Shown: positions 412-57,560 of the stretch, one piece after another | Position numbering within the stretch: the stretch's first letter is position 1 | Layout of the letters: each line of letters opens with the position of its first letter | The notes under the pieces: model-generated | What the model was told of the DNA's origin: nothing | Databases searched by the model: none | Seen by the model: the letters and a program-made list of their open reading frames with translations, nothing else | Translations under genes and position numbers: made by a program | Assembly: GCF_026151205.1 (NCBI RefSeq) | Contig: NC_087077.1 | Location: 12,932,983 to 12,996,982 of the forward strand | Origin: Bolinopsis microptera | Lineage: Eukaryota > Ctenophora > Tentaculata > Lobata > Bolinopsidae | Direction of reading: 5' to 3' | DNA length: 64,000 nucleotides

Positions 412-3400
412 CTGTTAGGGTGTATGTTAGATAGATGTCCCATCGAAATAACAGAAAAACTGCATTGGTGGAAATTTACGACAAATATTTAATATCATTT
501 ACTTACTTATTTTAATATTTACTTACTTTTCTGCGGGGTTATGTATTGTATAACTTTAGGTTTGCAGCGGATCACTGGAGTATCTGGTGCGTGAGGTTTT
601 GGATGAGTCTTCGGTGGTTTAAATGGAGGAGGAGGGGGAGGAGGTGGTGGTAGAGGAGGTGGTGGTCCACGAGGAGGCGGTGGTCCATGAGGAGGTGGTG
701 GTCCATGAGGAGGCGGTGGTCCATGAGGAGGTGGTGGTCCATGAGGAGGTGGTGGTCCATGAGGAGGTGGTGGTCCATGAGGAGGTGGTGGTCCATGAGG
801 AGGTGGTGGTCCATGAGGAGGTGGTGGTCCATGAGGAGGTGGTGGTCCATGAGGAGGTGGTGGTCCATGAGGGGGTGGTCCTCCATGAGGCGGTGGTCCT
901 CCATGAGGCGGTGGTCCTCCATGGGGTGGTCCTTCATGGGGTGGTCCTTCATGGGGTGGTCCTTTATGAGGTGGTCCTTCATGAGGTGGTCCTTCATGAG
1001 GTGGTCCTCCGTTGGGTGGTCCTCCATGGGGTGGTCCTTCATGAGGTGGTCCTCCGTGGGGTGGTCCTCCATTGGGTGGTCCTCCATGGGGTGGTCCTTC
1101 ATGGGGTGGTCCTCCAAGCCGTGGTCCTTCATGGGGTGGTCCTCCATGGGGCGGTCCTCCATGGGGTGGTCCGCCGTGAGGTGGCCCTTCATGAGGTGGT
1201 CCTTCATGAGGTGGTCCTTCATGAGGTGGTCCTTCATGAGGTGGTCCTCCGTGGGGTGGTCCTCCGTGGGGTGGTCCTCCGTGGGGTGGTCCTCCGTGGG
1301 GTGGTCCTCCGTGGGGTGGTCCTCCGTGGGGTGGTCCTCCGTGGGGTGGTCCTCCGTGGGGTGGTCCTCCGTGGGGTGGTCCTCCATGGGGTAGTCCGCC
1401 GGGAGGTGGCCCGCCATGAGGTGGTCCTCCGTGGGGTGGCCCTTCATGGGGTGGTCCGCTGGGAGGTGGTCCTCCGTGGGGTGGTCCTCCTTTGGGTGGT
1501 CCTCCGTGGGGTGGCCCATCATGGGGTGGTCCTTCGTGTGGAGGCGGACCGGGTCCATCACCGCCCGGTGGTCCACCAGGTCCATCACCGCCCGGTGGTC
1601 CACCAGGTCCATCACCACCTGGTGGTCCACCAGGTCCTTCTGGTCCTTCTGGTCCTCCTTCGGGAGGCTGTAGTCCTGAAATTTGAAGAAGTGTATTTAC
1701 CTTTACCGAGAAATTTCTTGCAATATTATTTTGATTAGCAATAACTTTAGCAACCCTTTTTATAAACGAAAGTTTAGTTCATGAAACTTACCGGCCATTT
1801 CTCTCATTATCTCTTCATCGACCAAATCTGCTTCGTCATCAATATTCGATTCGAACATGCTACCAATGTCAAGGTCTCTCTTGGCAATGTTCAGTAATTG
1901 GGACTGTTGACCAGTAGATTGGAGACGGCATTTTCCCCATGGCAACACAGGGAAGAAACCAGCTGGAATGATATCAGATCATTATATATTATAATCGGAT
2001 TATCAGTTATGTGATCATTAGATATTTGCGTTGATTGATTTAAAATAAAAACGGTTGATCTCGATTGCAATCCTTATTACAATAACATGGTAATATTTCA
2101 GAACAATTTAATAAAATGATGAACTCTAAACAGCGCTTCAAATTTCACATCTTATAAAATTTTAAAAATCTATTAACAAATGCATCAGTAATATTGAAGA
2201 TAATATAATCAATATTCAAATTCAATACCCGGCCGAGGACAAAGATTGTATGTGTAAAGCTTGTGGCAGACTTGGATCTGGGTGCTTCCTATATTATTGC
2301 CGCAATTCCTCGTGAAGCACTTTTTGACCCTCGTAGCACCTTGTAATTATAGGGTGATTAAATTTAAAACTTTAAAAAAGATAAATCAGATCTTTTACGT
2401 TGTGCGCATTCTCACAAAGCTGATATTTTGCGAAAATAGGAACATATTGTGAGTCTACCACTGATTGAGAATTTTTGCAAAACTTAAATTAAACTTATCA
2501 ATTTAAAGGAAGATTAAACATAAGATTACTCACAGCCCTGCACAAAGTGAGATTTGGCGTGGTTACAGGGTACTGTTAACTGTTTTCTAACTTTAGATTC
2601 ACACTGATTCTTTAAACTGTCCGTCAGCACGAACTTAGGAACAACCGTCTTCTTGAAAAGCGCGTATCCTAAAAATTTACAAATCACAATGAGTTGTTTT
2701 ATAAAAATATATTATTGCACAAGAAGCACCGTCTAGCTATAGTCTTAGAGCTCGGTTAATTTGACAGGAAGAAAGATGCTCAGTCATTAATAATAAATAA
2801 AAGTGCTCCGTTGGACTGTTTAACGACTGTCGCGTCGCTCTGCACCGCTAGGTAACCACTGGTAACCTAGGTAACTACTAGGTAACTACTTATAACCACT
2901 TACCAGTAGGTCTGTAAGTGACGTACACCTCGTTACAGTTAGTATAACTGGAGCACATTGTCACCGTGTAGATCATATCGTGAGGTTCGTCTGTTCCCGG
3001 ACAAATCTCCTTCCGGGTTCCTTTTGAAACGGACTTTATCTAGTGGAATATTGAAGTTGATGTTTTGTTCGAATTTGTTTAATATTGAAATAATTTGACT
3101 GTTTCGTCGGGCGTAGAGCACCGCTCAAATAAATTAAAGTGAAAGAATAGCAGTTAACTATATGAAAGCCTAGAAATTCGATTTGTTACAATGCATTGGG
3201 CTTTAATCCGATTAACTTGGGAGCACGTTCGTATGTTCATGTAGCCGACTACAGCTATTCATTCTTTCACTTTAATTTACTTGAGCGGTGCTACAGCTTG
3301 TCTTGCCGGTGATATAAAACCAATTTCGTGACTTTAATCTTTTAATGAAGATGGAGAATAGGGCAATCCTTTTCTTTAATAAAAGTTATTAAAACTGTCA

Positions 3401-9400: not shown

Positions 9401-12400
9401 TCATACCAGTAGAGCTTGATAATTTATGAATTTTGATTGGAATTAGAAGGCTCCAGTTTGGAAAACAAATTAATATAATTCCGCTCTCAGTTACGCCGAT
9501 GTAGGAAGAAATCCAAAATATCGAAAATATTTCAGATTCAGTGGATTATCAGGATGATCCCCGAGGGACGAGAATGCACCAAAACGTGCCCATCACGACA
9601 AGCCACAGTCCCTCCATCTTCTACTGTCCCACTAACCGTATTGATCTATCAAGACTTCATCCCAAACTTCATGAACTTTACTCCCACATCAAGACCTCAA
9701 ACTTTACCTTACAGCCAAACGAGACTATATTTGAGAACTTTTACATGAACCAGAGGAAAAGTATGCTAATGGATCAGTATGGAAACATGACGTACACGGA
9801 ATTCACTCTAAAGTAAGAAAATTACGAGATCTGGGAAACAAGAACAAATTATTTCAATCGAAAAATTTGATGTCCTTAAAGGTCAAATAAATTCTCGTTT
9901 CAGAAAAGTAATCAACCTAATCATTATTCGTTGTTTTATCGCCTAAAGGATATCAGAATAATAAAACCATGTAATTTTCTGTCATAGAATGTTGTAAAAC
10001 ATTCATTAACAGGTACAGCAGTCTAAACGAAGAGACCTTGAAGAAAACACACTGCTACATAGGGTACGAACTGACAGGAAACTCTAACTACACCTGTAAC
10101 TCTGATATAAAGCTCGTTCTTACAGAGCGAGGAGTTTGTTATCAGGTGAACGCTGAGAGGAGGATTCCACTGGAGGAGGGCTCGCTCGGAGCTATTAACC
10201 TCCTGACTATCCTAGATCTCAGCAAGTCTCTGAGGGTGGATCTGGAGAACGGGTTAGAGGTCTTCATCAAGGATCAGGGTTCTTTTCCAAACAGGTAAAA
10301 AGGAATTTCTTTAAAAAATTACGGTGGAAATGGTAAAAAGCTGTTTCATGTACACTGTTTTACTCTGAAGACGACATCTCCACACTTATCTAATTAATGA
10401 TTCCATTTCTACTAACTGACATGATTAATTCTAAAACAGGTTCGACAAAGGTGACGTATTGACTCCAGGCCTGGTACACACAATGAAAATGTCAGTGGAA
10501 GAAGTAACAGCCCTGCCAGTCCGAGACAGAAAGACAGTCTGCTACCCTAACACCTCACCAGGGGACTTTTACCCTGTTCCTTTCTACGGACCTCCAGAGA
10601 CGTGCAGTTACGCCTGCTACGCCTCTAACGCTCTGGTGTACATTAACAACACCTACGGTTGCATAGACGTCCCCAACAACTACAGTCAAGGTACGAGACT
10701 CTGTACTTTAAAAGAGCTGGAGGATTTAGTGGATTTCTCCACGGAGATACCTCTTAGTTTGGAAAGTAAACGACTCATTGACAGCCAAATCAAAGAAAAG
10801 GTTTCGTCTGGCTGTCTACCATCCTGCAGGGGTAAATATTACCACGCGGAGATACATTCCACCCCGATATATCCCTTGGCAATGAAAATGGCAGCCGTAT
10901 ATTTCAACGTCTCAGTGGATGAAGCCCGGTCCAGTTTAATCGGAATTCGTGTGGTGTTTCCGAGCACGATGAAAGTTGTGGAGGAAATAAGAACTTACAC
11001 TATTAACAATTACTTGGGTGATGTCGGGGGTGTGTTTGGGCTATTTTTGGGGTTCAGCTTCTTTACGTTCCTCGAGTACATCTACTTCGTTCTCTTTTAT
11101 GTGACGAAACGGTTGTGGAAGGGGTTAAAAGGTGATTGGTTGAAAAACTTAGATAACATTAATAGTGGGAAGATGAACAGTTGTGGAGTTGTTGAAAGTA
11201 ATCTCCGACAAAGGTCAACATCCTACATCTCAACTTGTTAGAGGATCTCAGACAGGGTCAACATCCTACATCTCAACTTGTTAGAGGATATCAGACTGGG
11301 TCAACATCCTACATCTCAACTTGTTAGAGGATATCAGACTGGGTCAACATCCTACATCTCAACTTGTTAGAGGATCCCAGACAGGGTCAACATCCTACAT
11401 CTCAACTTGTTAGAGGATCCCAGACAGGGTCAACATCCTACATCTCAACTTGTTAGAGGATATCAGACTGGGTCAACATCCTACATCTCAACTTGTTAGA
11501 GGATCCCAGACAGGGTCAACATCCTACATCTCAACTTGTTAGAGGATATCAGACTGGGTCAACATCCTACATCTCAACTTGTTAGAGGATCCCAGACTGG
11601 GTCAACATCCTACATATCAACTTGTAAGAGAATCTCAGACAGGGTCAACATCCTACATCTCAACTTGTTAGTGGAGTTGTTGAAAGTAATCTCCGACAAA
11701 GGTCAACATCCTACATCTCAACTTGTTAGAAGATATCAGACTGGGTCAACATACTATATCTCAACTTTTTAGAAAATGCCAGACATTGGTTAACATCCTA
11801 CATCTCAATTTGGATGTCTCGGGATTTAGGAGAACTTCTAACAGAGGTCTCGACCAATTTTGTTAACAAACTTCCAGCTAAATTGAATGTCAGTATGCTG
11901 TAGGCCAAAGGTTCCTCTAGGTCCTAGGACCATAAAAGGAGTTTTATGCTGCTGATTTATGCTATCAGCGCTATTGAAAAGTTAGAAGAATTACATATAA
12001 AAGAGATCGTTATAAATGGTTTTTGGTAATATATAAAATATAGACTCCCTTAAAGGATCTATTTTTACTCGCACTATAGAGAGCTAATTGTTTTATCTAT
12101 TGAGTCACCGTAACTTTATTATCATATATCATAGAGCGTTATTTCAAAATATCACTGTCTGTTCAGAGGTTTGCACCCCTTTATTTAACTAACCTGTTCT
12201 GCTGGCGAGGAAGGTGTGCTTTACTAACTGTTTCACGTTGTTCTTGTTGCAGTGAGTGGGAGCTGCAACATGTTGAATGATGACATTTCCATTTGAAGGT
12301 TGTCAAATGTTAATCACCGAATGATTTACAAGTGTTGTTACAAACTACTATTGGTAGTATCACTAAATTGTTCTGTAACCGCCCAGATCTTGTCTGCGTT

Positions 12401-18400: not shown

Positions 18401-21400
18401 CGGACCATCATGTCGGAGATGTTATCACGTGACCCTTTGTACTTCAGATCTGAGAGTTAAATTAGAGTTAAAATAATTTGAGCGAGCAGCAGTGGATTGT
18501 GGAAAAGATTTATCTGTCGATTTTCTAGTAGATTGCGCAATTGCCACGTCAGTAATCAGTTGAGGAATGATTAATATGTCTGCCGTCAGAAGTCAGTGAA
18601 ATTGTTGATTCTTAGCTTACCCATGGGGAACTCTCTTGACCTGGTCACGTAACACTCAGATAACTTGCCAGTGCGGCACGATCGGAATGTATAAAAGCAA
18701 ACAGTCCTGAACTTCGGTTTTTCTTTTTTGCCTTTCTTCGCATTGCTGTGAAGTCGCTGTTTCTGGCAAACTTTCCTGATTTCTGAGAAGAATGTTTTTA
18801 TTTTATACTTCATGCATTTTTTAACAGCGACTGCTAGGAAATTACAGTAGACCGATTTTGTATTTTTTACAGGGATCCAGTAAATTTTGTACAAGGCTCA
18901 AACCCGATTTGATATCAGGAAATTTCTTAGAAATGACAAGAACTAACCTGAAGTAACCATGAACTGATTCCTTGGCTGAAGGTGTGAGTAGGGCATTGCT
19001 AGAGAATACACAGTCACTTTCTTCCCTTTTACCAAAACAAGTTTATAGTATTGTCGAATGTTCTTCTTGTCACAGTTTGTTTTCTTCGTGATGGGTTTAC
19101 CCTCACAGACTTTCTCCGGACCAGACACTCCTGTTTGGGCAGGAATTTAGTTTTAAACATATTGAGAACTTCTCCACAGAGTTTTCCAAAATGGGTGCAA
19201 CCGGAACTTTTAAATAAAACTTAATCTTGAAATGCAAGTGCAGAACTGTTTGGAGGAAAAATCAGGAGAAGAAATTTTAGAAATTTTGTAACTTACGCTC
19301 GAGTTTCCATCCAGGGTATTTATCTCGAACTTGTCTCCATTTTAAGATCTGTACGGTGGAAGTGTAGGGATATCCCTCCAATGTCTGTTTGTAGTAAATC
19401 TTAGGAAACTCCTTGTAACCGCTCGGCAAATACCTAAGGAAGGGGCAGTTTTGATAATCGAACAATAGTTGACGTCACATCAACTACAGACTCGGTGACC
19501 ATTGCTCGGTTGTAATATCTGGTAATGGTAATAGCAGCTCGATATAATGAAGCTGACAACACTTAAAGCCAGTATCCATGATGTTACTTCAAAAGCAAAT
19601 TTCTCCGACGAACAATAGTAAAGTGCTCATTATTTCCCCGCTGCCAGCCATCAAAGATACATGCTCTGGTCAAAAGATTTTCTCGCTATAAATATTGGGT
19701 TTCTTTAAATTCCCAATATTTATAGTAAGTACTATTTATAGGGTTTAAATACCCAATGTTTATAGTAAATACTATTTATAGAGTTGCTAATTACTATATC
19801 ATCGAAAATTTGGTAGGATTCAGAAATTGACGAATCGGTAAATCAATCGAATCGATTCGGTGATTTTGTGATATCTGTGTTCTGTTCGACAAAATAATGG
19901 AATATGCGTCTGACGTACTATAATAGTAATAATTACTATGTAGCATCGTAGTGACCCTTCCCAGCCGTCATTGAATAAGCCTTGTACTAAACATGCAGTG
20001 CTGTCACTTATTTTTGCGACTATCCGGTCGAAGAGAGCAAACAGCAATAAAACACAAACTAGTTTATCCCTACGCAGAAGCAGAACAGATTAAAATTAAA
20101 TTGCGGAATCGTACGCCAGAAGAAAATTTAATCCTTCTCAACCGAATCAGTTTAAACCGTATACACTGACCTGGTTTTGATGGTTTGGCAGACCAGCTTG
20201 TTGCTCGCCATGCACAGTTTAAACTGGTAAAACTGTTTAACATGTGTAGGTTTCTGAACCATTCTCCAGTCAGCCTGCTTGTACTTCAAGTGGAGATATA
20301 CTATATCCCACTGTATCATCAGTTCCGACACCATTCTCACATCCCCTGAGAATCGTTAGAAGTTACAAATCTGCTATTTTTCATATCTAATTCATTTTCA
20401 ACATCTATTAATATTGTGCATATGTAACATGAAAATAACTTTAAGACTTCAGTTGATCGTTTGATTGAGCACTGTAAGTTTTGAAGAATTTAACTTTACT
20501 CATTGCATTTTACAACTGCAAGTGTCTCCTACCTGCAAAGATCATTCCGCGAGGGAAGGGTCCGCTAACAGATCGAGCACAATGCTTCTTTGATATGTCA
20601 CATACATCAAACAAGAACCTGAAAATTCACACTTGATCAAAAGTATGTAGAATCGGACAAAAATGCTGGCAATTTTTAGGCTGCTGCCTCGTTATTTGGT
20701 ATTTTGATGAACTCACTTCATTTCCCCTAGCTATTGTATCGAGGCCTATCAGAACTAAAAAGTGAGCATGTAACCTGCATGAGTTCCCATCCCCGCCAGC
20801 CTTCTTGCACCTCCTCACAATAGCGCTAGTGATTCTGTAGTTAGCACGTGGGCGGAAGTAAGGGTACGGGATCACTGTCAGGTAGAACACGCGTGTCTTG
20901 TGGGCTTTAGTGTGGGAGAATGTTACTTTGTAGTACGACATTCTCTGTGCTTTGGGGCAACTTCGCTTCTCTGGGGGCAGATATGATAGATTTATGGGTT
21001 GAAAAGTACTTTCTAAAACATAAGAAGAAAGAAAAAAGATTGTTGTTTGGATCATGAATATAGTTATACTACGACTAGGAATTCGAACATTGTCTGTGTC
21101 ACTCTTAATTAAGATTTATTCTAACTTGTGTTAGCCCGTCCTTTGCAGAGCGTTATTTGACTGTAAGACTTCATGGACCACAATTGTGGCTTAAGCACTC
21201 TCAACGCCTGAAAAGTGAAAACATTATACATATGCTCAGTTCACATTTGAGATATAAAAAATCATCAAGCCATCACAATGTCTAAATAGTTATTTTTATG
21301 GAAATTTCAAAGGGTGAACATGAATATAAAACATAAGTCCTAACCCTGGTCGATGGCAGCATTTTCAAGCCATAACTCCAGCGATACCCTTCAGTAGTAA

Positions 21401-24400
21401 CCCATATTATCGGTTTCTTTTCCCACAAGGTATACTCTCTGCAATTGTACGATCATTTAAACATTGCATAATACTAAAATGACATAATATTTAACATATA
21501 ACCTCTAAACTTTATAAATAGTAAATCATATAAATCATAAATAGAATGATCTCATACCGGAACAGTCTGAATGCGAACCAGTCAGCAGCACCAGTCATTT
21601 GTACTCGTGTAATCTGCTTAAGAGGGATCCTGTACTTATAGGACCTTCGCGTTATCAAAATACCATTCACCTGATATATGAGCCATATTTATATGACAGC
21701 TTTGAAGGTTTTTTCAAAATCTCATAGTCTCTCTGTATCAAACTATGTGTTTAACATACATATTACATAGAATATAGATGGATATCAATTATTCAAATTA
21801 TGAATGCGGCAAAAGTTTCGAATATATCTCAAATGTAGCTATCATACCACAACTGTGAAGCCTTTACGGTGGGCAACGATGGCGATAGTAAAGGTGCCAG
21901 GTCCATGGGGTCCATGTGGTCCTCCAGGTCCTCCAGGTCCATCAGGTCCTCCAGGTCCATCAGGTCCTCCAGGTCCATCAGGTCCATCAGGTCCTCCAGG
22001 TCCATCAGGTCCTCCAGGTCCATCAGGTCCATCAGGTCCTCCAGGTCCATCAGGTCCTCCAGGTCCTCCAGGTCCTCCAGGTCCTCCAGGTCCATCAGGT
22101 CCTTCAGGTCCTCCAGGTCCTCCAGGTCCTCCAGGTCCATCAGGTCCTCCAGGTCCTCCAGGTCCATCAGGTCCACCTGGTCCATGACGTCCACGGTGTC
22201 CACGGTGCCCTCGGTGTCCACGGTTTCCACGGTGTCCACGGTGTCCACGGTGTCCACGGTGTCCACGGTGTCCACGGTGTCCTCGGTGTCCACGGTGTCC
22301 ACGTCGCCCATGACGTCCATGTCGCCCACGGTGTCCATGACGTCCATGTCGCCCATGACGTCCATGACGTCCATGTCGCCCATGACGTCCATGACGTCCA
22401 TGTCGCCCATGATGTCCTCTAGGTCCACCAGGTCCGCCAGGTCCCCCAGGTCCACCTGGTCCACCCGGACCTTCAGGGCCTCCCCGATGGAAGGGCCACC
22501 GCCTCGATATCACTTCATGTCCCCACCCCCCTCGTTTAGTGTTCATCACTATCTTGCCATCACCCGCTGGTCTGAAGTCCAGGTGAAACGCTATCTGCAA
22601 ATAATTCAGGGCATTTATAATTTATCGTAATAATAGCATCACAACCTCAAGTTCCTCATGTTATTTTAGCGCTATCCAAATGAGGAAACAACTATAAAGA
22701 TAATATAGATATGATGAATCTAATAATCCTAATAACGGATGTAATAATCTTAAATAAAAAGCAATATCATTGACTCTTACATTTCCATTATTAGTGATAA
22801 GATTGACTGTGAACTTTTTCTTCCTATCTTTAGCCACACCCGAGATGATAATGACATCAAAAGGCCTGACTCCTCCGGACAAACCGTATATCTTTGCACC
22901 AACGATCATGCGATAGTTTGTCACTGAGGTACTGCTATTAGGTCACATAATTACAGCGTTAGCATCAACCACAGTCTTGTTAAAGGAAACTTGGTATGTT
23001 ATATTTGATGCAGTAGTTATTGGGTCCACCAATCAGCAAGCCTGTCTAGACCCACTATTTAAACTGAATCTTAAATATCTCATAATATCATTACTTTATC
23101 CTGATTTTGACCTTTGCAAACCCTCCACCCCATCCGTCACTTTACAAAAGGTTATTGTGCAGAAATTACTCTACCGTAAGTTCTTCTACAACCCCTCCCC
23201 TCTTAGACTCGCTTACGCAATGAGTGAACGACCCCCAAATTAGCATTATAAAAGCCACTTTTGGAACTGAACCCTGGTTAACCAATATCCAAATCCTACT
23301 CAGTCACTGAGACTACAATTCAATAAATCCACTTTTTTAAACTGAATCTTAAAAAGTACAATCATATATAATTATCAATTACCTGAAGATCTGAAGTGTC
23401 TGAACTGCTTCACAATTCCACCACGATCTATACCTCTGAACTCGTACCCGGTTAATGTTTTAAGGTCCACTTTGTGGGGGAAAGGGTGGTACATTAAACC
23501 GTTGATCGTTACAAAGTATCCTTGAGGGGCTACCTGCAAGGCGAGGTTCGTTAACTTATTACTAACCTTGTTTTGTTTAATCCAGTACTATGGCGGATAG
23601 ATAGTTCTTTTCTTACATTAGAGTTTATTAATATCAGTTGTTTTGAAGGATAATTTCAAGGTTTTGTTGGTTCACTTTGGAGTTGGACTTTTAAATTTTG
23701 TGACCATTGTCACTTACTTCAATGAGGACAGTGAAGCGGCCTTTGATTCCGGGTGGAGGGAAGGGGGCGTCTGATTTTGATATCACATGGTCTCCTTTTA
23801 GTGCTGTCATCATGAACTTCTTCCTTCTTCCACTGAAACAATATAAAAAAATCAAACTTTAAGATCCCTTTTTCCACTTCCATGTTTATAATCAAAGCTC
23901 CCATCAGGGGTTTAGTAGAATTTAATTAAAACAATCACGACTTAAATTCTTACCCCGTGAAAGTAAGCCTGAGAGCTTCAGTTCCGTGTCCAACAATTGT
24001 AAAGATCATTTCCCCATGTTCCAGAAACTGCCCAACAAAGTAGAGGGTATCTCCAAACATAAGTCCAGCCTCAAACTTGTAGGACTGGTTTAGGATCCCA
24101 TTTCTCCTCTGATCTGAAGGGTTTCAATGCAGCTCATTTGCAGAAATAAAATGACAACCATTGTTATACCAGGAACATCTAAACCTGATTTGAAACCTTC
24201 AAAATTAAAGAAATAGGCCCCTTCCTATTTCTCACGAACACTCAATCCAGTAGCATAATTTCTTCAAATATTGTTCCCTAGGCCCCGTTAATATAAAGTG
24301 ACCATGACCCCTTGTATTTGAAGAGTAACGCAAAAAAATACTCACACATTTTGTATTTGTTAGTGTATGTGAACACTTTTGTCAAAGATTTCCAGTCTTT

Positions 24401-25866
24401 TGAATGAGGATCGACTGAAATGTTTGAAAACTGTTAACTGAACATCAGTTTTTATCGATAGTAATTCGATCACGATGATATTGACAATTTGTGTGGAAAG
24501 ATACAACTATATTTAACAAACCAGGTAGGTAAGGAGGAGGAGGGGGTGGTCCTTCTTGAGGTGGTCCTTCATGGGGTGGTCCTTCATGGGGTGGTCCTTC
24601 ATGGGGTGGTCCTTCATGGGGTGGTCCTTCATGGGGTGGTCCTTCATGGGGTGGTCCTTCATGGGGTGGTCCTTCATGGGGTGGTCCTTCATGGGGTGGT
24701 CCTTCATGGGGTGGTCCTTCATGGGGTGGTCCTTCATTGGGTGGTCCTTTATGGGGTGGTCCTTCGTGGGGTGGTCCTTCGTGGGGTGGTCCTTCGTGGG
24801 GTGGTCCTTCGTGGGGTGGTCCTTCGTGGGGTGGTCCTTCGTGGGGTGGTCCTTCGTGGGGTGGTCCTTCGTGAGGAGGTCCTTCGTGAGGTGGTCCTTC
24901 GTGAGGTGGTCCTTCGTGAGGTGGTCCTTCGTGAGGAGGTCCTTCGTGAGGTGGTCCTTCGTGGGGTGGTCCTTCATGGGGTGGTCCTTCATGGGGTGGT
25001 CCTTCATGGGGTGGTCCTTCATGGGGTGGTCCTCTGTGAGGTGGTTCAGGCTTAGGCTGCGGTGCTGGTGCTGGTTCTCCTCCTCCACCAGGTGGTCCGT
25101 CTCCGCCACCAGGTGGTCCGTCTCCGCCACCAGGTGGTCCATCTCCGCCACCATGTTCACCACCGCCTGGGCCGTCGCCTCCAGGCCCATCTTCTGGTGG
25201 TTGAAAATCTGAGGCGACAATAAATTCGTCAAATTCTAATAGTTAAGTTACTCGAAAAGAGATTTATAAACACATTTTTCGTACCAATGACCATGAACTC
25301 CAGTTAGTAAATAGACAAAGTGTTCGTTATCTATGATTTTCCCTTTACTTTAGGTTCCTTAATGTCATACACGGCAACAAGAGAGAGGCTAATTTAAGCC
25401 TGGAAAACATTTACCGTCATACCTCTTTTTTCAAGAACAACCAGATCATCGTTCTCCCAGGACAGACCCGGCGCGGGCTCTATATTCAATACATCAGCAG
25501 TTAATAGATCTGGATAAAAGGGTTTTGTGAATAGATAATCGGGGATCAAGTTCATGAGGTCATTAATAAAATCGTTTTTTAATTTTAAATCAAAATCAAA
25601 GTTGGTACAAACCTTCATCAGTTAAACTTATTGCATCAGAGGCAACGATACACGGCACAAGTAAGAGTCTGAAAGAGAAAAATAAGTATGAAACTCATAA
25701 TTATGTAAATTGGCAATAATCCTTGCACCATGGTCAGCAATTGATTTAATGATTTCTTAATGCTTGCAAATATTTGTACTTACCTTGAATATACTTAAAA
25801 ATTATATGAATTAACTCACATTAAAAAAGTTGTAGAAATATGAGGTGAAATATTGAGCTTGAACAT
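248..25866 (-). CDS. Giant secreted galectin / Gly-X-Y / Pro-His-Gly repeat protein, 37 predicted exons, 2219 aa
   Basis: Predicted extracellular protein; exact role unknown. Threaded exons (minus strand, listed 5' to 3'): 25866-25820, 25668-25613, 25509-25423, 25208-24522, 24414-24346, 24113-23954, 23832-23718, 23533-23383, 22923-22781, 22594-21848, 21670-21558, 21438-21345, 21207-21126, 21012-20775, 20618-20533, 20345-20171, 19433-19297, 19130-18948, 18833-18621, 18449-18246, 17837-17694, 17051-16980, 15924-15886, 15502-15359, 15172-15065, 13842-13708, 13147-12998, 12559-12521, 12262-12194, 4482-4444, 4217-4059, 3529-3461, 2990-2904, 2668-2534, 1962-1792, 1675-527, 411-248. They sum to 6660 nt with a terminal TAA. 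Order: signal peptide (start [10 protein letters not shown]), PPHEG repeats (aa 64-292), galectin-like domain 1 (about 300-457), galectin domain 2 (458-823) with a collagen-like insert (544-738), Cys/Lys/Tyr modules (about 824-1782), Pro/His/Gly repeats (1783-2165), C-terminus. Every junction is GT-AG; 27 of 36 introns are phase 1. The weakest calls are exons 3529-3461 and 12559-12521 and the 21126/21012 junction. Confidence 0.72.
527..1675 (-). CDS. Pro/His/Gly repeat exon of the giant protein
   Basis: A 1149-nt (383-codon) exon between acceptor caaatttcag and donor gtaagtaaat, phase 1 to 1. It starts with [17 protein letters not shown] and GGDGPGGPP repeats, runs through about 44 pentapeptides PPHGG or PPHEG, shifts to about a dozen hexapeptides PPPPHG, and ends with [19 protein letters not shown] and [16 protein letters not shown]. 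Composition and internal design match exon 25208-24522 near the N-terminus, so the two probably share an origin by duplication within the gene. Alternative open frames read [10 protein letters not shown] or GWSSV repeats; they are minisatellite shadows. Confidence 0.75.
650..1548. repeat. Coding minisatellite, 15-bp and 18-bp units
   Basis: About 893-1548 is built from 15-bp units such as ggtggtcctccgtgg, ggtggtccttcatgg and ggtggtcctccatgg. About 650-892 is built from 18-bp units ccatgaggaggtggtggt, which encode PPPPHG on the minus strand. Both belong to exon 527-1675. The change of unit length without loss of frame (15 to 18, both multiples of 3) indicates selection for the reading frame. 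Confidence 0.9.
1792..4482 (-). CDS. Cys/Lys/Tyr module region of the giant protein (part 2)
   Basis: Exons 4482-4444, 4217-4059, 3529-3461, 2990-2904, 2668-2534 and 1962-1792, all phase 1 to phase 1. They continue the module type: [39 protein letters not shown] and [17 protein letters not shown]. The last exon changes to an acidic segment ([17 protein letters not shown]) before the Pro/His/Gly exon. A 7.7-kb intron, holding the DEG/ENaC gene and a fold-back element, separates this block from part 1. Exon 3529-3461 is the least certain: its frame and phases fit but it lacks cysteines. Confidence 0.55.
4590..6708. mobile_element. Poly-G-bounded fold-back element
   Basis: Starts with a run of G followed by ttcaccctgatttttt (4590-4620) and ends with the inverted form aatcagggtgaa plus a C run (6675-6708). 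The interior holds AT-rich sequence with gcccatatttgg-type motifs and a second, TTAA-flanked palindromic element (4894-6269). It sits in the 7.7-kb intron of the giant gene, next to exon 4482-4444. Non-autonomous: no transposase reading frame seen. Confidence 0.65.
4890..6273. mobile_element. TTAA-flanked palindromic element, copy 1
   Basis: TTAA, then GGGGGCATACACCAAA..., a near-perfect inverted repeat of about 690-bp arms with its centre near 5590 (tttttatctgcaaagccaaa), then ...GGTGTATGCCCCC and TTAA. A TTAA target duplication is the signature of piggyBac-type transposition, so this is probably a non-autonomous member of that class. No protein-coding frame is present. Nearly identical to copy 2 at 40110-41458. 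Confidence 0.75.
7760..7905. repeat. CACGTG-containing tandem repeat
   Basis: Seven or so degenerate units of about 16-21 bp (gcgcacgtgtgccatat with optional gata) each holding the palindrome CACGTG. Located in the large intron of the giant gene, upstream of the DEG/ENaC gene. CACGTG is an E-box core, so a cluster could bind bHLH factors, but this may be a simple satellite. Confidence 0.8.
9163..11241 (+). CDS. DEG/ENaC (ASIC/degenerin-like) sodium channel, 4 exons, 521 aa
   Basis: Trimeric, amiloride-sensitive-type cation channel of the plasma membrane; ligand unknown. Exons 9163-9367, 9536-9812, 10013-10294 and 10440-11241 join in phase (1, 2, 2) to 1566 nt. Seen: cytoplasmic N-terminus with the family HG motif (THGVKL, residues 35-36), TM1 about 49-65 ([13 protein letters not shown]), a large extracellular region with paired cysteines and N-glycosylation sequons, then pre-TM2/TM2 at about 448-480 ([18 protein letters not shown]) containing the G-x-S selectivity motif as GFS (459-461). 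Length is normal for the family. The gene lies in a large intron of the minus-strand giant galectin gene. Its last codons (SYISTC) and stop fall in the first unit of a 43-bp satellite, so the C-terminus may be recently remodelled. Confidence 0.88.
11205..11800. repeat. 43-bp tandem satellite after the channel gene
   Basis: About 12 copies of a 43-bp unit containing gggtcaacatcctacatctc and aacttgttagaggat, starting inside the last exon of the DEG/ENaC gene. Variants alternate cagacaggg/cagactggg and gatctc/gatatc/gatccc. One later unit (11671-11720) repeats the gene sequence gtggagttgttgaaagtaat, so part of the terminal exon was copied into the array. Confidence 0.9.
12194..21012 (-). CDS. 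Cys/Lys/Tyr module region of the giant protein (part 1)
   Basis: Sixteen predicted exons from 21012-20775 to 12262-12194. No known domain was recognised, but the segments resemble one another: a lysine/tyrosine strand, a Cys pair and a Y/V-rich strand, for example [39 protein letters not shown] and [19 protein letters not shown]. These alternate with segments holding a YP motif such as [25 protein letters not shown] and [14 protein letters not shown]. Exon lengths are mostly multiples of three. From exon 19433-19297 onward every intron is phase 1. This suggests an extracellular module amplified by exon duplication. It may be a lineage-specific fold. Confidence 0.6.
15480..15700. repeat. Duplicated splice-acceptor segment
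   Basis: The 22-bp string taagataacctaggttttat occurs at the acceptor of exon 15502-15359 and again about 180 bp upstream in its intron (near 15675). On the minus strand both contain the acceptor-like aacctag followed by GTTATCTTA, so the upstream copy could act as an alternative acceptor. Confidence 0.6.
21115..21126 (-). terminator. Possible internal stop plus polyadenylation signal in the giant gene
   Basis: On the minus strand the sequence after exon 21207-21126 reads TAG directly followed by AATAAA (21120-21115). If the donor at 21125 (gttaga) is not used, translation would end after ...CKGRANTS and the transcript could be cleaved here, giving a short protein of about 850 residues with only the repeat and galectin domains. 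Confidence 0.4.
21345..22923 (-). CDS. Galectin domain 2 carrying a collagen-like loop insertion
   Basis: Exons 22923-22781, 22594-21848, 21670-21558 and part of 21438-21345. The read-through shows [51 protein letters not shown], then WPFHRG, a 195-residue insert, and [19 protein letters not shown], ending [10 protein letters not shown]. This aligns in order with canonical galectin strands. Contact residues are largely kept: H-x-D-x-R (Asp replaces the usual Asn), then N, W and E of the V-x-N...W-G-x-E motif. It may therefore be an active carbohydrate-binding domain. The insert falls exactly in the loop of the normal PF-x-x-G-x-x-F motif. Confidence 0.75.
21896..22480 (-). repeat. 65 Gly-X-Y triplets inside a galectin domain
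   Basis: Within exon 22594-21848 the coding frame carries 195 residues with Gly at every third place: GPE/GPG/GPD triplets at both ends and a central Arg/His block of GRH, GHR, GRR and one GNR triplets. The phase of Gly never slips, even where the block changes from GRH to GHR. Pro is mostly in the X position and Y is Gly, Asp, Glu, His or Arg, so hydroxyproline in Y would be rare. The length (585 nt) is a whole number of triplets and keeps the galectin frame open on both sides. Confidence 0.85.
23383..24414 (-). CDS. Galectin-like domain 1 (degenerate) of the giant protein
   Basis: Exons 24414-24346, 24113-23954, 23832-23718 and 23533-23383. The protein shows the strand order of a galectin fold: [20 protein letters not shown], then [11 protein letters not shown] and LRLTFTG, then [35 protein letters not shown] and LKTLTGYEF. 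The PF-x-PG-x-F-x-V block followed by V-x-I-N-G and a closing L-x-G strand is the galectin hallmark. The sugar-contact H-x-N-x-R and W-G-x-E positions are not recognisable, so this copy probably does not bind galactosides in the canonical way. Assignment rests on pattern reading only; a profile search against the galectin family would decide. Confidence 0.6.
24522..25208 (-). CDS. (PPHEG)n repeat exon of the giant galectin protein
   Basis: A single 687-nt exon bounded by acceptor cctcag and donor gtttgt, phase 1 at both ends. In the only frame joining both neighbours it reads GDGPPGG-type repeats (four copies), a short [10 protein letters not shown] linker, about 30 pentapeptides PPHEG with rare PPNEG or PPHKG, then a [14 protein letters not shown] end. 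Other frames also stay open because the array is a perfect 15-bp minisatellite, but only this one agrees with flanking splice phases and with the biased Pro/Gly composition seen in exon 527-1675. Pro-His-Gly pentapeptides recall the histidine-rich region of vertebrate histidine-rich glycoprotein, which binds zinc; relatedness is not claimed. Confidence 0.75.
24543..25035. repeat. 15-bp coding minisatellite (PPHEG array)
   Basis: About 30 tandem copies of ggtggtccttcatgg on the plus strand (CCA CCC CAT GAA GGA on the coding strand). Variants cluster: an outer block with cat, an inner block with cgt (both His codons, CAT or CAC), and a sub-block with gtgagg instead of gtgggg. The clustering indicates expansion by unequal exchange. 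Third-position changes are mostly silent, as expected under protein-level constraint. Confidence 0.9.
25613..25866 (-). CDS. Signal-peptide exons of the giant galectin protein
   Basis: Exon 1 (25866-25820) begins with ATG and ends TTAAT before the donor gtgagt (phase 2). Exon 2 (25668-25613) follows the acceptor ttctctttcag. Together they give a start of [15 protein letters not shown] followed by [13 protein letters not shown]: a hydrophobic core and a small-residue cleavage site near residue 27, typical of a secreted protein. Only one frame of exon 2 is open, and it needs a phase-2 donor upstream, which is what exon 1 supplies. Exon 1 is short, so another upstream start remains possible. Confidence 0.65.
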
Positions 25867-26726: not shown

Positions 26727-28040
26727 TCAGAGTTGCTGACCACCCCAGAGAGAAGATGCCTCTCGATCGTTACGCCAGTCAAGTATAGAATTGGAGTTCG
26801 GTGATGTGAAGCCCCGGATTGGCGGTTTATCCGGCAAGGAAAGCATGAATGCCGTCATATGATGCTTGAAGCCATCATGTTTGGAGACTGCACGTATGTG
26901 CGAAGGTATACAGTTCCAGAGTCTGGGACCCATTACACCAAATGATGTTTCATATAGAGTCTGGTGAGCAGCTGAGCTTTTTGTACGGACAGCTGGAACC
27001 TTAGCAAGGGTACCCAATCGTGGATTTACTGTGAACTGTACTTCAAGGTCGTTGGATGTGAAACCATGTAGGATTTTCCACATGTGCATGACAATGTAAC
27101 GTTCTCTGCGCCTCTGAAGTGACATGAGGGACAGGGTTTTTAGGCGATCCCAATAATGGAGATGCTGTAAACCATGGATCTTTGAAGTGAAAGTTCTTTG
27201 TACACTTTCAAGCTCCTGAATTTCATACACTTTCGCCGGATTCCACAGAGGAGAACAATACTCTAAGTGGCTACGGACTAGTGACTTGTATAGTGTTAAC
27301 ATAACACCAGTATTGCGAGAGTGGAAGACACTGAATACCCATGCTGCCATCTTCCTCGCTTTATCACAACTAGATCGTATGTGTGATGTCCAGGACGTAT
27401 CACTGGATACTGTTATACCGAGATCACGGAGCTGATCCACAGGACTGAGTATAGTACCAGTTGATGTTCTGTATTGGAACTGTTCATGGACAAAAGGAAG
27501 CTCATAGAGAGGATTACGTTTGTTGGCAAGATGGCATATGTACTCAAACTTATCCTCATGTAGTGCCATGTTGTTTCTTGATGACCACTCAGTGACTTTG
27601 TCAAGATCAGACTGAAGCTCAGTAACATTATGTGAATCACTGATGGATCTGCAAATTCTTGTGTCGTCAGCGAAACATCTTAACGTTGAATGCAACACGC
27701 AGCTAGCAATGTCATTAATGAATATTAAAAACAGTATGGGACCTAAAACTGTTCCTTGGGGGACACCACTCATAATAAGAGCAATGATAGACATGTGACC
27801 ATCTACAACAACTTGTTGAGTTCTATTTGTAAGAAATGACTCGATCCAGATGATGATTTTGGGATGAAAACCATATAGTTGCAGTTTTTTGATAAGAAGT
27901 TGATGATCTACTTTATCAAAGGCCTTGGCATAATCCAAGTATATAGCGTCCATGTCGTCACCATTTGATAACGCCTCGATGATGTCATCAAAATGATGAA
28001 GCAGAATTGATCTAAATGTTTTCGGCAATATACCGTTAGT
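26727..28040 (-). mobile_element. 5'-truncated non-LTR retrotransposon, reverse transcriptase
   Basis: An open frame of about 433 codons encoding the palm and C-terminal part of a LINE-type reverse transcriptase. Motifs in order: DAIYLDYAKAFDKVDH, SGVPQGTVLGPILFLIFIND and the catalytic FADDT. A conserved C-terminal region with SHLEYCSPLWNP and WDRLKTLSLMSLQRRRERY follows. This layout is typical of jockey/CR1-like elements. The upstream finger motifs and any endonuclease are missing: upstream of about 28040 the sequence is unrelated and AT-rich. The frame has no internal stop, so insertion is fairly recent or the copy is young. Dead on arrival by 5' truncation. Confidence 0.85.
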
Positions 28041-31010
28041 TTCGTGTAGTTAAAATGCTAAAATCGTATCTTCAAATAGCCACGTCGCTTCGCGTAATTC
28101 AATTCTTTAGAAATTTCATTAAAACAAGTTTTTCATTAAAATCAAGTTTTAATCCTTTTATGGCGGGGTTCATGTTTTATCAAAAATCAAAAATAATATT
28201 TTTGAATCTGTCTTAAGAATTATAAAAGTATTCGTGAGAAATTAGGAAATTGTTTCAAAATGAATCCTTTTACGGTGTTAATTCTGTTCGATATTACCAC
28301 TTGCTTTCGTCATGCTGTCATTATTTTTACTCACAACAGACACTGAATCCTATTTGATAGGAGATTTTTGTTGTCATTTTAACCTATTTTCTCATTACCT
28401 TAACGAAATGAAACATGGACCAACTTTAAAGTTTAGTTATTGCATTTAAGATAAGATAGATATTTAAGAGAAGATGCACATTTATATTTGTTGCAACACT
28501 AAATAATAGTTACACTATCAAGTATTATTATATTCGCTACAAATATCTCCATCTTGTAGCTGATTGGTTATGTCCTGATTTGCTATCAGACATGATAACC
28601 ATCCCTCCAGTCAATGTAATGTCTTCCTCAAGCGATTTCTTGAGTAGATAACACGTTTTAAAACCACTATACGCAACAGCAAATATAACCATTTGATCAT
28701 TAACAATTTAATTTCTGCAGCAAGATAAATCCGCTCTCACTATAATTTGCTCACCCAAATCTTGTGAAAGGACCCTTTTATCGATGTATTTTTAGACGTT
28801 TATAACTTAGTTATGTCAAAAAACTAATTCGGTCACCTGACAGGCTAATAATACGCAAATTCGGTTGTTTAGGGGTATGCTTAGGCCTACGGTTACCTAG
28901 CTTGCTAGTCCATTGCTCTATTTTCTCACGGGTATGCACTGTGTCCGAGCATTTTACCAGATAGATTCACCAGATACCAATAATTAATTAGGGTGCGACT
29001 GTGACCTCAAATCTTGATACATCAACCTCGAGGATGTTACTCTCAGTCTCAACAATTCCATAATTGCTGTTGAACGGCACCTCAATTTCAAATTGTCGCG
29101 CTTTTGTTATATTTAGCCTTTACAACCATTGGACTTGTTCAATTTGTATTGGAATTAAACATAAGAGTAAGACTTACTAGATTATTACCCACCTCAGATA
29201 GAATTATGTTTTATCTAAACTCTCCCCCCGGCCCCGTTGAGAGGAATCAGTCAAAATGAATTTATATTCTATGTTAAATACATTTAAGGGTACTAAGATA
29301 AACTGTTTACTGCAGGGATGCACTTTAGTCCCCCTGTGGATGGTACACTACTGTCCGTGCTCTCCTAGCACTATCAGAATGCAGTCTCCTCCATACCAAC
29401 CCACTACACCTATAAAATATGTGTATAAGACTGCATACGACTATTAGACTGCATATGACTTTAGGACTGAAATTGGTCATAGATCAGACAAGGCTGGTCG
29501 GTCGGAGGTCGATCGGAGGTCGGTCAGGCGCCGGTCGGCGGTAGGTGAACGCCGGTCGGAGGTCGGTCGGAGGTTGGTCGGAGGTTGGTCGGAGGTTGGT
29601 CGGAGGTCGATCGGGCGCCGGTCGGGCGCCGGTCGAGCGCCGGTCGGAGGTCGGTCGGAGGTCGGTCGGAGGTCGATCGGACCCTGAAATTTGTCTCAAC
29701 AATAAATACATATTCATGCGGTCGTGATGTGTGTCATGTATATCATTATTTATATTATACCGGTGATGTGAGATTTGGCAAATTATGTCAAGATCACGTA
29801 GCTCTGCCTCAATCGTCATAGCCACATGCGAATATTACAATAAAACGTGTAATTATAATCTCATAATCTGTCAGGTTTTTGATTAATTGCTCGATATCTG
29901 CTATACAAGTTTGCACTTGCAAGGCCGAGCCAAGACTGTAATGTACTCACTACTTTTACCATTACCGTTTGCTGAGCATGGGATGCACACTCTAGTCTGT
30001 TGTCTTGATTGTTGATACCTTTTATGATTTATTGTATTATGTTATATAATTTTAGGCTTCGTGTACGTTAGATTCCGTCGCTTTCAATCGGTGTTACTGG
30101 CCATAAAGTCAATTGTACTTAAAAGCGTATCAGGAAGTTATTCAGCATGTTATCGATAGTAGTGGAAATTGGTATATCGACAGTAGTATAATATGACTGA
30201 TACTTGACCGCGAGAAGAGTACATTTGACCACTTTCAACACGAGTCCATATTACCGATATTATGACCTGTGCAACGTGATAAGGTGATACATATCTAGTC
30301 ATTTGTTATATCAACACTTTATACCTGCAATTAAGCAATTAGCAGGCAGAAAGGCACGTACAAGTTAAACAATACGGAGCTTACAAATTATTACAATCAC
30401 TATCAATTATATAGTAAGCGATATGTTCTAAAAATTGTAAAATTCTTGTCACAGCACATACAACTGCATTTTGTGACAGAGTAGAGTGGGGAAATGCAGT
30501 GGGGATCATATGGATATAATAGTCTTTTATTTTAATTTCAGTCTCACCCAATATTATAATTATAATTATCAATGCTACTTTAGTGCTTGCTTTCAAAATC
30601 AAAGTTCCTTTATTTGAATAAATTTTAGTAGCCCTTAAGGTTTAACTTTAAGCCATGAAGTCCTAGAACTTAAGTGAAACAAACTATCATCTATTAAGCC
30701 CGATGCGAATTTAAGAATAATTTACTTGCTAATAATTTGTAAATGCACAAAGTAAAGGTCCCTATGAAAATATTTATGAAGATTCGCAGTTTGTTTTTTT
30801 TTCGTTTCACTTATACAAAGTTTCAGATGTGAGCATGAAATCGAGATTTTGAGGTTTGTAACGTTTTATTTGGAATAAGCAGTCAACATGTCTAAAGGAA
30901 ATTACAAATAAATAATTGAAGATTGATCAATAAAATGGTGCAAACCAAATTTAAAATAAGTTTTTACCCCAAATCATTTTGACATCGCTATAAAACGATT
31001 AACGGCATAT
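28041..31010. other. Gene-free intergenic DNA
   Basis: AT-rich sequence between the reverse transcriptase remnant and the transposon cluster at 31 kb. Open frames are short and lack splice context or family motifs. The only ordered structure noticed is a G-rich direct repeat at 29490-29690. Confidence 0.6.
29488..29690. repeat. GGTCGGTCGGAGG-type tandem repeat
   Basis: About 16 copies of a 12-13-bp unit (gtcggtcggag, with gttggtcggag and gtcgggcgccg variants). Antisense frames read RPTSDRP and similar strings, a by-product of the repeat. Confidence 0.85.
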
Positions 31011-54647: not shown

Positions 54648-57560
54648 ATGAATACTGTTGCTTTCTTAGTTTTATCAGTAGTTGTATCAGTGGAACGCGC
54701 ATCAACGGAGAACCCCGAACTAGGTGAGCCTTTAAGAAACTGCAACAACGAATCCACATCAAACAATCCTATGTGACACAGTGTGTTCATTGTACGGCGA
54801 AACTAAAAACACCTGATTCCACCACTGCACGAGTGTAAAATCATCAGCTGGCTGAAATGAAAGAAAATTTCAGTGTAGGTCAAGGTTTGATCTGCGTTAA
54901 TGAAACAAAATTGTACATTTGTAGTAAAATTTCTGAACAAGATCAATCTAATTTCAGGTAAATCGTGCATGGTGCGAGGACAGCTTGTTAACCACGGACA
55001 ATCAATCAGCACGAACGATTGTAACGCGTGTAAATGTGTGTTTGGCGCGACGGTCTGCACCCAGCACCCTTCATGTGACACGCCCACTACATGTAAATAC
55101 GGAGACAACCTGTACGTCCCCCAGGGAAAGTTCACTCAGACGGACGGAAGGGAATGCGAGTGTTTGGAGTCTGGGGAGACAGCATGTGAGAAAGAGTTGT
55201 GTGAGTATCCTGGGTACGGTGAGATAGAGCAAGGCGCGTCCGCTAACATCGGTTGTAAACTCTGCACGTGCAGAAACCGTCAGCTAACGTGCAGGGAGAC
55301 TGACATGTGCAATCCGAGGGTTTCAGCAGATGGGTCTGTTTGTAACTTGGAGGATGGAAGAGTGGTGTTGAGTGGTCTATCAGTGCAAGTTGATTGTAAT
55401 ACCTGTGTGTGTCAGGACGGCTTTCTGGTCTGTACTCGGCGTATTTGTGGTTCTGATGGAATGTCTCAGAGCTGTATACTCGCTTCAGGAGATACAATCC
55501 AGCACGGAGAAAGGCAGATAAAGGATTGTGAATCTTGCGAGTGTAGTAATGGCGAGGTTACCTGCACTCGTTTCTGCTCCGAAACTACCGGCTGTCAAAT
55601 TGATGACATGATGTTACGGGATGGACAATCCTATGGGGACTGTGTTTGCGTGAATACTGAACTGATCTGTGCTGAAAATGATGATAGAATCTCAGAACTG
55701 AACCCAGCTGATCCCAAGAGTCCTGACACCAGAAAATCATGTGGAACTTTAGATGACGGGCGGATGGTTTTCATAGGATCCAAAGTGAAGACAGCAGATG
55801 GGCGGGAATGTCAGTGCTCAGAATCAGGATCTTATATGACGTGTATCTCGGATAATACCTGTCTGTTCAGGGGACAGAGGGTGCCAGTAGGGCAGATCAA
55901 TAGCCAGTGCTTCTGTATGTACACAGGCATGGTTCAGTGTACCAGTGATGGTTTTATTAGAGGCTCTGGAGCCGGGAGTGATCGAATAAACCAAGCTGGT
56001 GGATTGTTGGGGGCTGGTTCAATCTCTCAAACGTCTGAGTCAAGTCAGCAGCAAGTCAGTGTAAGCTCAGCATTCAAGGACTCAATCTCAACAGATGATC
56101 CTAATCGGGAGATCGTCAACATGGAGCCAACTCGTAAAGTTTCAGATAAATCTGGCACAACATCAAAATACTGTGGTGTCTTGTCCGATGGTAGGAAAGT
56201 TGGACTTGGAGAAGTTATCACTGATTCTGACGGAAGGACCTGCAAGTGCAGCGAGTCTGGTAACTTTCTAGAGTGTACCTCAGCAAGTGCAATGTGTTAT
56301 TACAACCAGATAACTTACCAAGTGGGGAGGATTGACGATAAATGCGCGTGTTTAAACACGGGAAACGTTGTCTGCAACAGTGAGATTGGTGGTAGTTCTG
56401 ACGAGATAAAGATTGATGGTATTAGAAGTGACTCTGGTTCAGATCAAATAAAGACCAATTCGGATCGAATAAAGATCAGCGGTGAATTTCAGTCACCGAT
56501 CAACACAGGTTCAGTTGTCTCTCAGGCGAACGTCAAGGGTATCAGTGACGGTTCCTGTCGTATAGGAGACATCATGTACCGTAACGGACAATTTATCGGG
56601 TACGGACAAGGAACACAAACGTGTGTGTGTAAAGACGGTAGTATATTCTGTGCAGAGGTAGCCGTGGACGGGTGCCCCATGGAGAGCGGAGCAGTGCTAG
56701 CGGAGGGACAATCTGTCCAACTCGCTCTGTACACGTGTCTTTGTAAAGCGCAACGCCTGATTTGCTCTATGTCTAGATCCTGCTTCCACCTTGGTGTTGA
56801 GCTGGCAAATGGGCAGGTGGTAATGAACAACGGACAGAAGTGTGTCTGTTTGGAGAATAAGATGATGTGCTACCCAGTGGGGTCTTGTTTCCTAGGAGGC
56901 AGGGTTCTGACAGAGGGTCAGGTGGAGGTGTCCGTCGCGGGAGAGTATTGCACGTGCACGAACGGTGAGTTATCTTGCGCGGTCACTGAGGTGTTCTGTG
57001 AAGTTGGAGATATTAATAGCAATAGAAGGCTGGAGGTTGGGGAGATGATAAAGCTGACTGATAGAGACTGTACGTGTACCAGCACTGGTATCGAGTGCAG
57101 TGAAGTAACCTCATACTGCGAGTTCACGGTACCATCAGGGGAAACACATAAGCTGCCTAGAAAATCCCAAAGAATCATCCCAGGACTAGGAAAATGCACG
57201 TGCAAAACAGAGGGTTTACAATGTCTGAAGGGGTGTTACCTGGGTGACATTGTGATGAACGAAGGGGAGACAGCAGTGTCAAACGGTAAAATCTGCGACT
57301 GCACGTCTAACTCACTGACCTGCCGCGCGGGTTACACGTGCTACATTGAGGGAGACATCAAACTGGTCTCAGGAGAGAACTCAGGAAGGTGTAAGTGTGG
57401 GGTGGGAGAGTTGAGTTGTGAGGGTGTGGTGGGATGGGAGGTGCAGGCAGCATGTGTAGCGGATAATATTGTGGTACAGGAGGGGGTGACAGTGCCCTAC
57501 CGGTGCGGGTATTGCAAGTGTAGTCGAGGTGTACTCGGGTGTTATCATGTGAACTGTTGA
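54648..57560 (+). CDS. Secreted protein with about 19 VWC/pacifastin-like cysteine modules, 892 aa
   Basis: Exon 54648-54723 (MNTVAFLVLSVVVSVERAST, a clear signal peptide; donor gtgagc, phase 1) and exon 54958-57560 (acceptor ctaatttcag) join to 2679 nt. The mature part is a chain of modules of about 35-45 residues with the pattern C...G...C-x-C-x(2-4)-G-x(3)-C-x(4-6)-C. The first (DCNACKCVFGATVCTQHPSC) matches the pacifastin and VWC C-x-x-C-x-C core. Two Ser/Ile-rich linkers (around SQTSESSQQQVSVSS and SDEIKIDGIRSDSGSD) split the chain. Such proteins are extracellular, binding growth factors (VWC) or inhibiting proteases (pacifastin); which applies here is not decidable. The bulk of the protein is one uninterrupted 2.6-kb exon. 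Confidence 0.82.

Follow-up and report, generated by a model that had tools for sequence, protein, structure and literature searches.

Collagen-like tracts normally lie between domains. In collectins and ficolins, a collagen-like tract is combined with lectin heads, but there it stands at the N-terminus and joins entire heads of other families into trimers, whereas the tract of the ctenophore gene described here lies inside a galectin domain. The lectin domain of the cnidarian nematogalectins is presumably also of a family other than PF00337. According to the accessible text on nematogalectins, a signal peptide, a Gly-X-Y tract and a galactose-lectin domain are present in one protein, as predicted for our gene (PMC4195985). 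The same text puts the nematogalectin tract in front of the lectin domain, the two being separated by an intron, and in a nematocyst setting, whereas here the tract is within the domain and within an exon (PMC4195985). A cnidarian nematocyst-type reading of our gene was dropped because the genome is that of a ctenophore, close to Mnemiopsis and probably lobate. A glutamate-receptor stretch of this genome (L024) matched the PDB chain ML032222a iGluR at E 2.7e-121 and 408.5 bits, compared with 146.1 bits for the best kainate-2 chain, and names beginning with ML are those of Mnemiopsis leidyi gene models (PMC6278862). Searches of the genome for COX1 and GFP gave no match and carry no weight in this assignment.

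Among galectins, the chimera-type galectin-3 also has a Pro/Gly-rich N-terminal tract before its carbohydrate recognition domain (CRD), as the available part of one source describes (PMC13084444), and that tract is termed collagen-like in the available part of another (PMC4557014). Galectin-3 has a single CRD with no insert, whereas our model combines two CRDs with a loop tract and a predicted signal peptide. The layout also differs from the chimera type in that a second galectin-like domain stands between the Pro-rich tract and the interrupted domain, CRD2. Tandem-repeat galectins (galectins 8 and 9, sponge HOL-30) have the two CRDs per chain that are predicted here but have no loop tract, and the CRD1 of our gene is degenerate, scoring 17.5 bits against the PF00337 curated cut-off of 22.1 bits.

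Gene model and splicing

The galectin gene is on the minus strand of the window, by which we mean the whole 64-kb stretch of DNA analysed. In-frame joining of exons gave a 12-exon model of 828 residues without a stop codon or frameshift. The phase is kept from the start codon at 25866 to the stop codon beginning at 21123, and all 11 introns have GT/AG borders. The predicted protein consists, in order, of a likely signal peptide, a GPPHE-rich tract, a degenerate CRD1, an interrupted CRD2 and a C-terminal extension, encoded as follows.

25820..25866, minus strand: putative exon 1, with the start codon and the beginning of the likely signal peptide (16 residues)
25613..25668, minus strand: putative exon 2, remainder of the likely signal peptide (18 residues); acceptor with 15/17 pyrimidines
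25423..25509, minus strand: putative exon 3, encoding a short acidic stretch with EKR at its end; both ends in phase 1; 11/17 pyrimidines at the acceptor
24522..25208, minus strand: exon 4, N-terminal Pro/Gly/His/Glu-rich tract of 228 residues
23383..24113, minus strand: CRD1, degenerate galectin domain (exons 24113-23954, 23832-23718 and 23533-23383)
22781..22923, minus strand: exon with the first strands of CRD2
21848..22594, minus strand: exon with the CRD2 contact strands (HLDFR, VMN, WGHE), the Gly-X-Y tract and TFTIAIV...FTVV
21558..21670, minus strand: exon with the last strands of CRD2 (VNGILITRR...FAFRLF)
21121..21438, minus strand: C-terminal extension (exon 21438-21345 and the exon from 21207), with the stop codon

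Exon 1 was found by scanning upstream of 25668 for phase-fitting donors; its donor scores 5.0 and its phase fits. The first 28 residues of the preferred model reach a peak 12-residue hydropathy of 2.97 around residue 13, which points to the signal-peptide model as the likely gene start and to a galectin that is probably secreted. A leaderless ATG at 25555 is a possible alternative start. The exon 4 tract contains 29 GPPHE units with a net charge of -37, and a search with the N-terminal part returned this gene as its sole match. The weakest donor of the model is that of exon 4 at 24522 (score -1.0), and the donor at 21345 is also weak (0.4). Just upstream of the gene is a reverse-transcriptase frame (window 26730-28049, minus strand; PF00078, 68 bits), a probable retroelement.

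Splicing could change what the tract-bearing exon contributes. This exon (22594-21848) has 747 bases with phase 0 at both ends, and its skipping would preserve the frame but lose the sugar-contact strands. Exact excision of the tract needs an acceptor near 21899, and no YAG site was found between 22176 and 21852; as predicted from the splice sites, no acceptor for an exact splice-out exists. The acceptor site at 21852 would take lectin strands out too. Partial splicing inside the tract is possible, as its internal donors (scores up to 1.5) and the internal YAG at 22176 (8/17 pyrimidines) are within the range of the model's own donors (-1.0 to 5.1) and acceptors (7 to 15).

The interrupted galectin domain and its tract

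The profile search with and without the insert, which the original prediction had proposed as a check, assigned both flanks of the tract to one domain. With the tract removed in silico, CRD2 scored 83.2 bits against PF00337, and the full protein scored 74.9 bits in three stretches. The flanks alone scored 45.6 bits on the N-terminal side (profile 6-81) and 23.0 bits on the C-terminal side (profile 83-124), so that the join falls at profile positions 81/83. In the PDB, CRD2 was matched best by Galectin-9 (2.5e-23), whose loop PFQKGMPF aligns to the site of tract removal (PFHRG/GTF). Judged by profile and alignment, the flanks are one galectin domain with the tract in its PF-x-x-G-x-x-F loop and with TFTIAIV...FTVVVNG as the rest of the same fold, exactly as had been proposed. 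We take the PFxxG turn to join galectin strands S6 and F3, away from the sugar-contact residues.

The strand order, with its H-x-D-x-R, N and W-G-x-E contacts, had been called canonical. The strands are there, with HLDFR, VMN and WGHE in place, but the motif as a whole (HLDFR / VMN / WGHEVI) is not fully canonical; compared with the usual set, worded HFNPRF / VCN / WGxExR in the accessible part of PMC13084444, N is replaced by D and the last R by I. The same D occurs at this place in 4/6 other aligned CRDs of the genome. Because two usual contact positions differ, sugar binding by CRD2 is predicted but not assured. CRD1 has lost the sugar-contact motifs, and its PDB matches were at E >= 0.44 only. 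AlphaFold2 on the single exon 22594-21848 gave a mean pLDDT of 50.5, which is uninformative on the fold.

This exon is open in frame through 38 residues, the tract and a further 17 residues. Within it, the tract has the following parts.

21899..22480, minus strand: Gly-X-Y tract, 194 residues (64 full triplets and GP), model residues 521-714
22184..22417, minus strand: 26-triplet Arg/His core of the tract (12 GHR, 11 GRH)
21899..22183, minus strand: 3' arm of the tract, with 31 GPG/GPD-type triplets and a net charge of -12

Counting the G of GTFT, the repeat amounts to the 65 uninterrupted in-frame triplets (about 195 residues) that had been reported. Outside this exon, the longest Gly-X-Y run in six frames of the 64-kb window has 12 triplets. 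The tract had been described as having GPG/GPD ends around a GRH/GHR centre, and these triplet types were recovered, but the ends are unequal, with 7 GP-type triplets before the 26 of Arg/His type and 31 after them. Its charge is not that of a polycationic middle, as first thought. The first 33 triplets are basic, with a net charge of +26 from 27 Arg and 25 His among their residues, and the last 31 triplets with GP are acidic, with 11 Asp.

The tract is built of pure 9-base tandem repeat units. Because such a repeat keeps further frames open on both strands, the open frame alone is weak coding evidence. Stronger evidence comes from the splice phases over 12 exons, from the flank profile matches in the frame of the tract and from the glycine codons. 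Positions 1-2 of the leading Gly codon are invariant in 64/64 units, while position 3 departs from the commonest base in 8/64. When the 20 distinct units were linked in a minimum spanning tree, 0/24 changes fell on Gly codon positions 1-2; the probability of this under an even spread is 0.0024, a figure to be taken as a guide only because the units are non-independent. The glycine codons thus look constrained, and the Gly-X-Y layout within the galectin exon looks real.

We searched the same genome for comparable galectins. The PF00337 profile had at least 30 matches, and all 30 listed ones span profile position 82. Twenty-eight of them exceed the profile stretch by no more than 11 residues; the other two exceed it by 59 and 71 residues, with 5 and 7 stops, and these extra lengths are read as introns. 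The window gene is absent from the 30 listed matches, and similarly split genes would therefore escape that search; inspection letter by letter covered a minority of the 30. A genome search with CRD2 gave 19 matches, four rows of which are the window gene and 15 others, the best of these being 36% identical. No such insert was found in the open reading frames of six loci, inspected by eye, or in six aligned CRDs from four of these loci.

Several of these loci have features of their own. One on contig C4 (L003) has several galectin CRDs in one 745-residue open frame. The proteins encoded at two others, on contigs C4 and C7 (L004 and L011), are nearly identical to each other; besides a signal-like start and a galectin domain, they have a long region in which no Pfam match exceeded its cut-off. 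A transglutaminase identity for the latter protein was rejected, as its only Pfam matches were the galectin domain and, below cut-off, F5/8. The open reading frames at all three loci start signal-like, as judged by eye.

A same-strand neighbour gene (window 522-1830, minus strand, continuing leftward into the adjoining locus L005) contains a similar exon with GPPHGG/GPPHEG repeats. The intron before this exon is of phase 1, which is also the case in the galectin gene, and the two genes look like a case of exon sharing. No galectin domain was seen in the neighbour gene. To its left are exons that encode Cys residues and repeat a motif (KCF..., CW...); one of these exons had no match in a Pfam search. 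Elsewhere, the window contains an amiloride-sensitive (DEG/ENaC-type) sodium channel exon (10435-11238, plus strand; PF00858, 67.6 bits) and a Cys-rich 889-residue open frame (54891-57557, plus strand) whose VWC- and fibronectin-I-like matches are all below cut-offs.

Conformation of the tract and alternative explanations

We propose, with about an even chance of being right, that the gene encodes a secreted ctenophore galectin whose loop is a charge-segregated polyproline-II-type module acting as a second binding surface. The loop-module part of this reading is supported by the single domain found by profile, by the tract being in one exon and frame, by the glycine constraint and by the blocks of charge. 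The position in a surface turn, away from the contact strands, would let the lectin fold around the insert. The tract may have grown by repeat expansion with glycine under constraint. It would take a polyproline-II conformation, as a folded-back extension or a bundle and not as a single straight collagen rod. The Arg/His half could then offer a second, charge-dependent binding surface, perhaps sensitive to pH or metal. Together with the acidic His/Glu-rich N-terminal tract, this surface might combine galactoside binding with the cross-linking of mucus or mesogleal material.

The polyproline-II part of the proposal rests on geometry and on composition. The rise of collagen is 0.286 nm per residue, by which a straight rod of 195 residues would be about 56 nm long. 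Because both ends of the insert share one loop, a straight three-chain rod must fold back or part the two lectin halves; a single-chain polyproline-II bundle escapes this end-separation problem. For the composition, we used 11 collagen runs of at least 30 triplets from one 9.9-kb stretch of the same genome (L019). The Y position of these runs is Pro in 8-33% and Gly in 0-5% of triplets. Our tract has Pro at 0/64 Y positions and thus lacks this site of hydroxylation, and it has Gly at 22/64, which recalls polyproline-II bundles. In the accessible parts of the sources, GGX repeats are typical of polyproline-II bundles and GXX of collagen (PMC13243192), and single-chain Gly-rich bundles use GGX-type repeats (PMC8409303, PMC13243192). 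The 22/64 triplets are GPG, and GGP appears in the +2 register at 17/31 units of the 3' arm. The GGX character is confined to the arms of the tract and has no instance in the Arg/His core, which counts against the polyproline-II reading. So does the estimated mean host-guest propensity for a triple helix. With literature values, and with Y-position Pro taken as Hyp, the tract averages 33.6 and the 11 runs range from 30.9 to 34.9. As the propensity of the tract is no lower than that of the genome's own collagens, its composition does not rule out a triple helix. The comparison stretch itself (contig C13:4154000-4163900) has open frames of 1709 and 1746 residues with interrupted Gly-X-Y runs, and its 11 measured runs are poor in X-position Pro (0-11%).

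The tract could instead be a disordered, fast-changing repeat that is tolerated in a surface loop, serves for spacing only and owes its length to slippage. We consider this unlikely, though it deserves to be weighed. The pure tandem units, the similar Pro/Gly repeat in the adjacent non-galectin gene and the lack of an insert in the paralogues examined would all fit such a loop, but the first two positions of the glycine codons never vary while other positions do, and the charge blocks are ordered.

The trimer favoured by the original prediction, in which three loops form a collagen triple helix, if need be running out and back at mid-tract, and trimerise the lectin heads in a collectin-like manner, fared less well than the anatomy on which it was built, and we regard it as rather improbable. 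The unbroken triplets with constrained Gly codons, the X-position Pro content of 59% and a propensity within the range of the genome's own collagens speak for it. The two ends in one loop, the Y positions free of Pro, the usual site of stabilising hydroxyproline, and the frequent Gly at Y speak against it. PF01391 (collagen) also had no match to the full protein at E <= 1, to which HMMER composition filters may contribute. A true collagen triple helix in the tract is therefore doubtful.

It is improbable, to a degree that we would not build on, that the locus is a pseudogene, a mis-joining of exons or an assembly error in the repeat and gives no working protein as modelled. Long repeats are prone to assembly errors, the two weak donors noted above could mark wrong joins and CRD1 is degenerate; against this, all 828 codons of the model are free of stops and frameshifts, and the tract and its flanks are in a common exon and frame. 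Finally, a split lectin, with a three-chain collagen rod of about 56 nm carrying the N-terminal halves at one end and the C-terminal halves at the other, so that CRDs are completed where rods meet end to end in a sugar-binding fibre, would mean that completing the lectin fold itself polymerises the protein, but it is very improbable.

Comparison with known systems

The anatomy of a galectin with a collagen-like loop insertion is well supported by the sequence, and the tract seems to have expanded within one loop of a compact beta-sandwich of the sugar-binding kind. The expectation that no galectin of this design had been described was borne out in the literature searched, mostly papers open without a subscription and including the accessible parts of PMC8878817 and PMC4944945, where we found none with a collagen-like tract inside the CRD; such a search leaves absence unproven. 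If expressed in the predicted form, the protein would be a candidate constituent of the mucus, the mesoglea or the adhesive secretion of ctenophores. In the available text on Mnemiopsis, colloblast candidate genes are enriched in lectin terms and not in low-complexity sequence (PMC6278862), and prey-capture glue is no more than one of the possible roles of the protein. Ctenophores are regarded as sister to other animals in the accessible parts of two further sources (PMC11797021, PMC10232365).

Large and small insertions into galectin-like folds have precedents. Sponge galectins resemble our model in that an insertion within a galectin and signal peptides are both reported in the accessible part of PMC13084444; that insertion has 10 residues and is not Gly-X-Y, whereas ours has about 195. 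In the evolved Dit proteins of streptococcal phages, as far as the available text describes them, a galectin-like domain is interrupted by a module of about 250 residues, which is flanked by two linkers (PMC9437275). This precedent indicates that a galectin-like fold tolerates a large insert. The Dit insert is, however, itself a folded module that binds carbohydrate, and its host is a phage tail protein; the collagen-like linkers of these phages sit in another protein, between domains, in the same part of the source (PMC9437275).

For the proposed conformation of the tract, the closest systems are the Gly-rich polyproline-II bundles. In ALK, such a bundle is within a beta-sandwich module. The bundles of snow flea antifreeze protein, phage S16 gp38 and ALK are single-chain helices with GGX repeats in the accessible parts of the sources (PMC8409303, PMC13243192), as we propose for our tract; they differ from it in that the tract is known from sequence alone and its Arg/His core is not GGX. 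If expressed as predicted, the protein would be a new galectin architecture, and it would provide a natural experiment on whether Gly-X-Y repeats confined to a closed loop form a triple helix, a polyproline-II bundle or a disordered chain.
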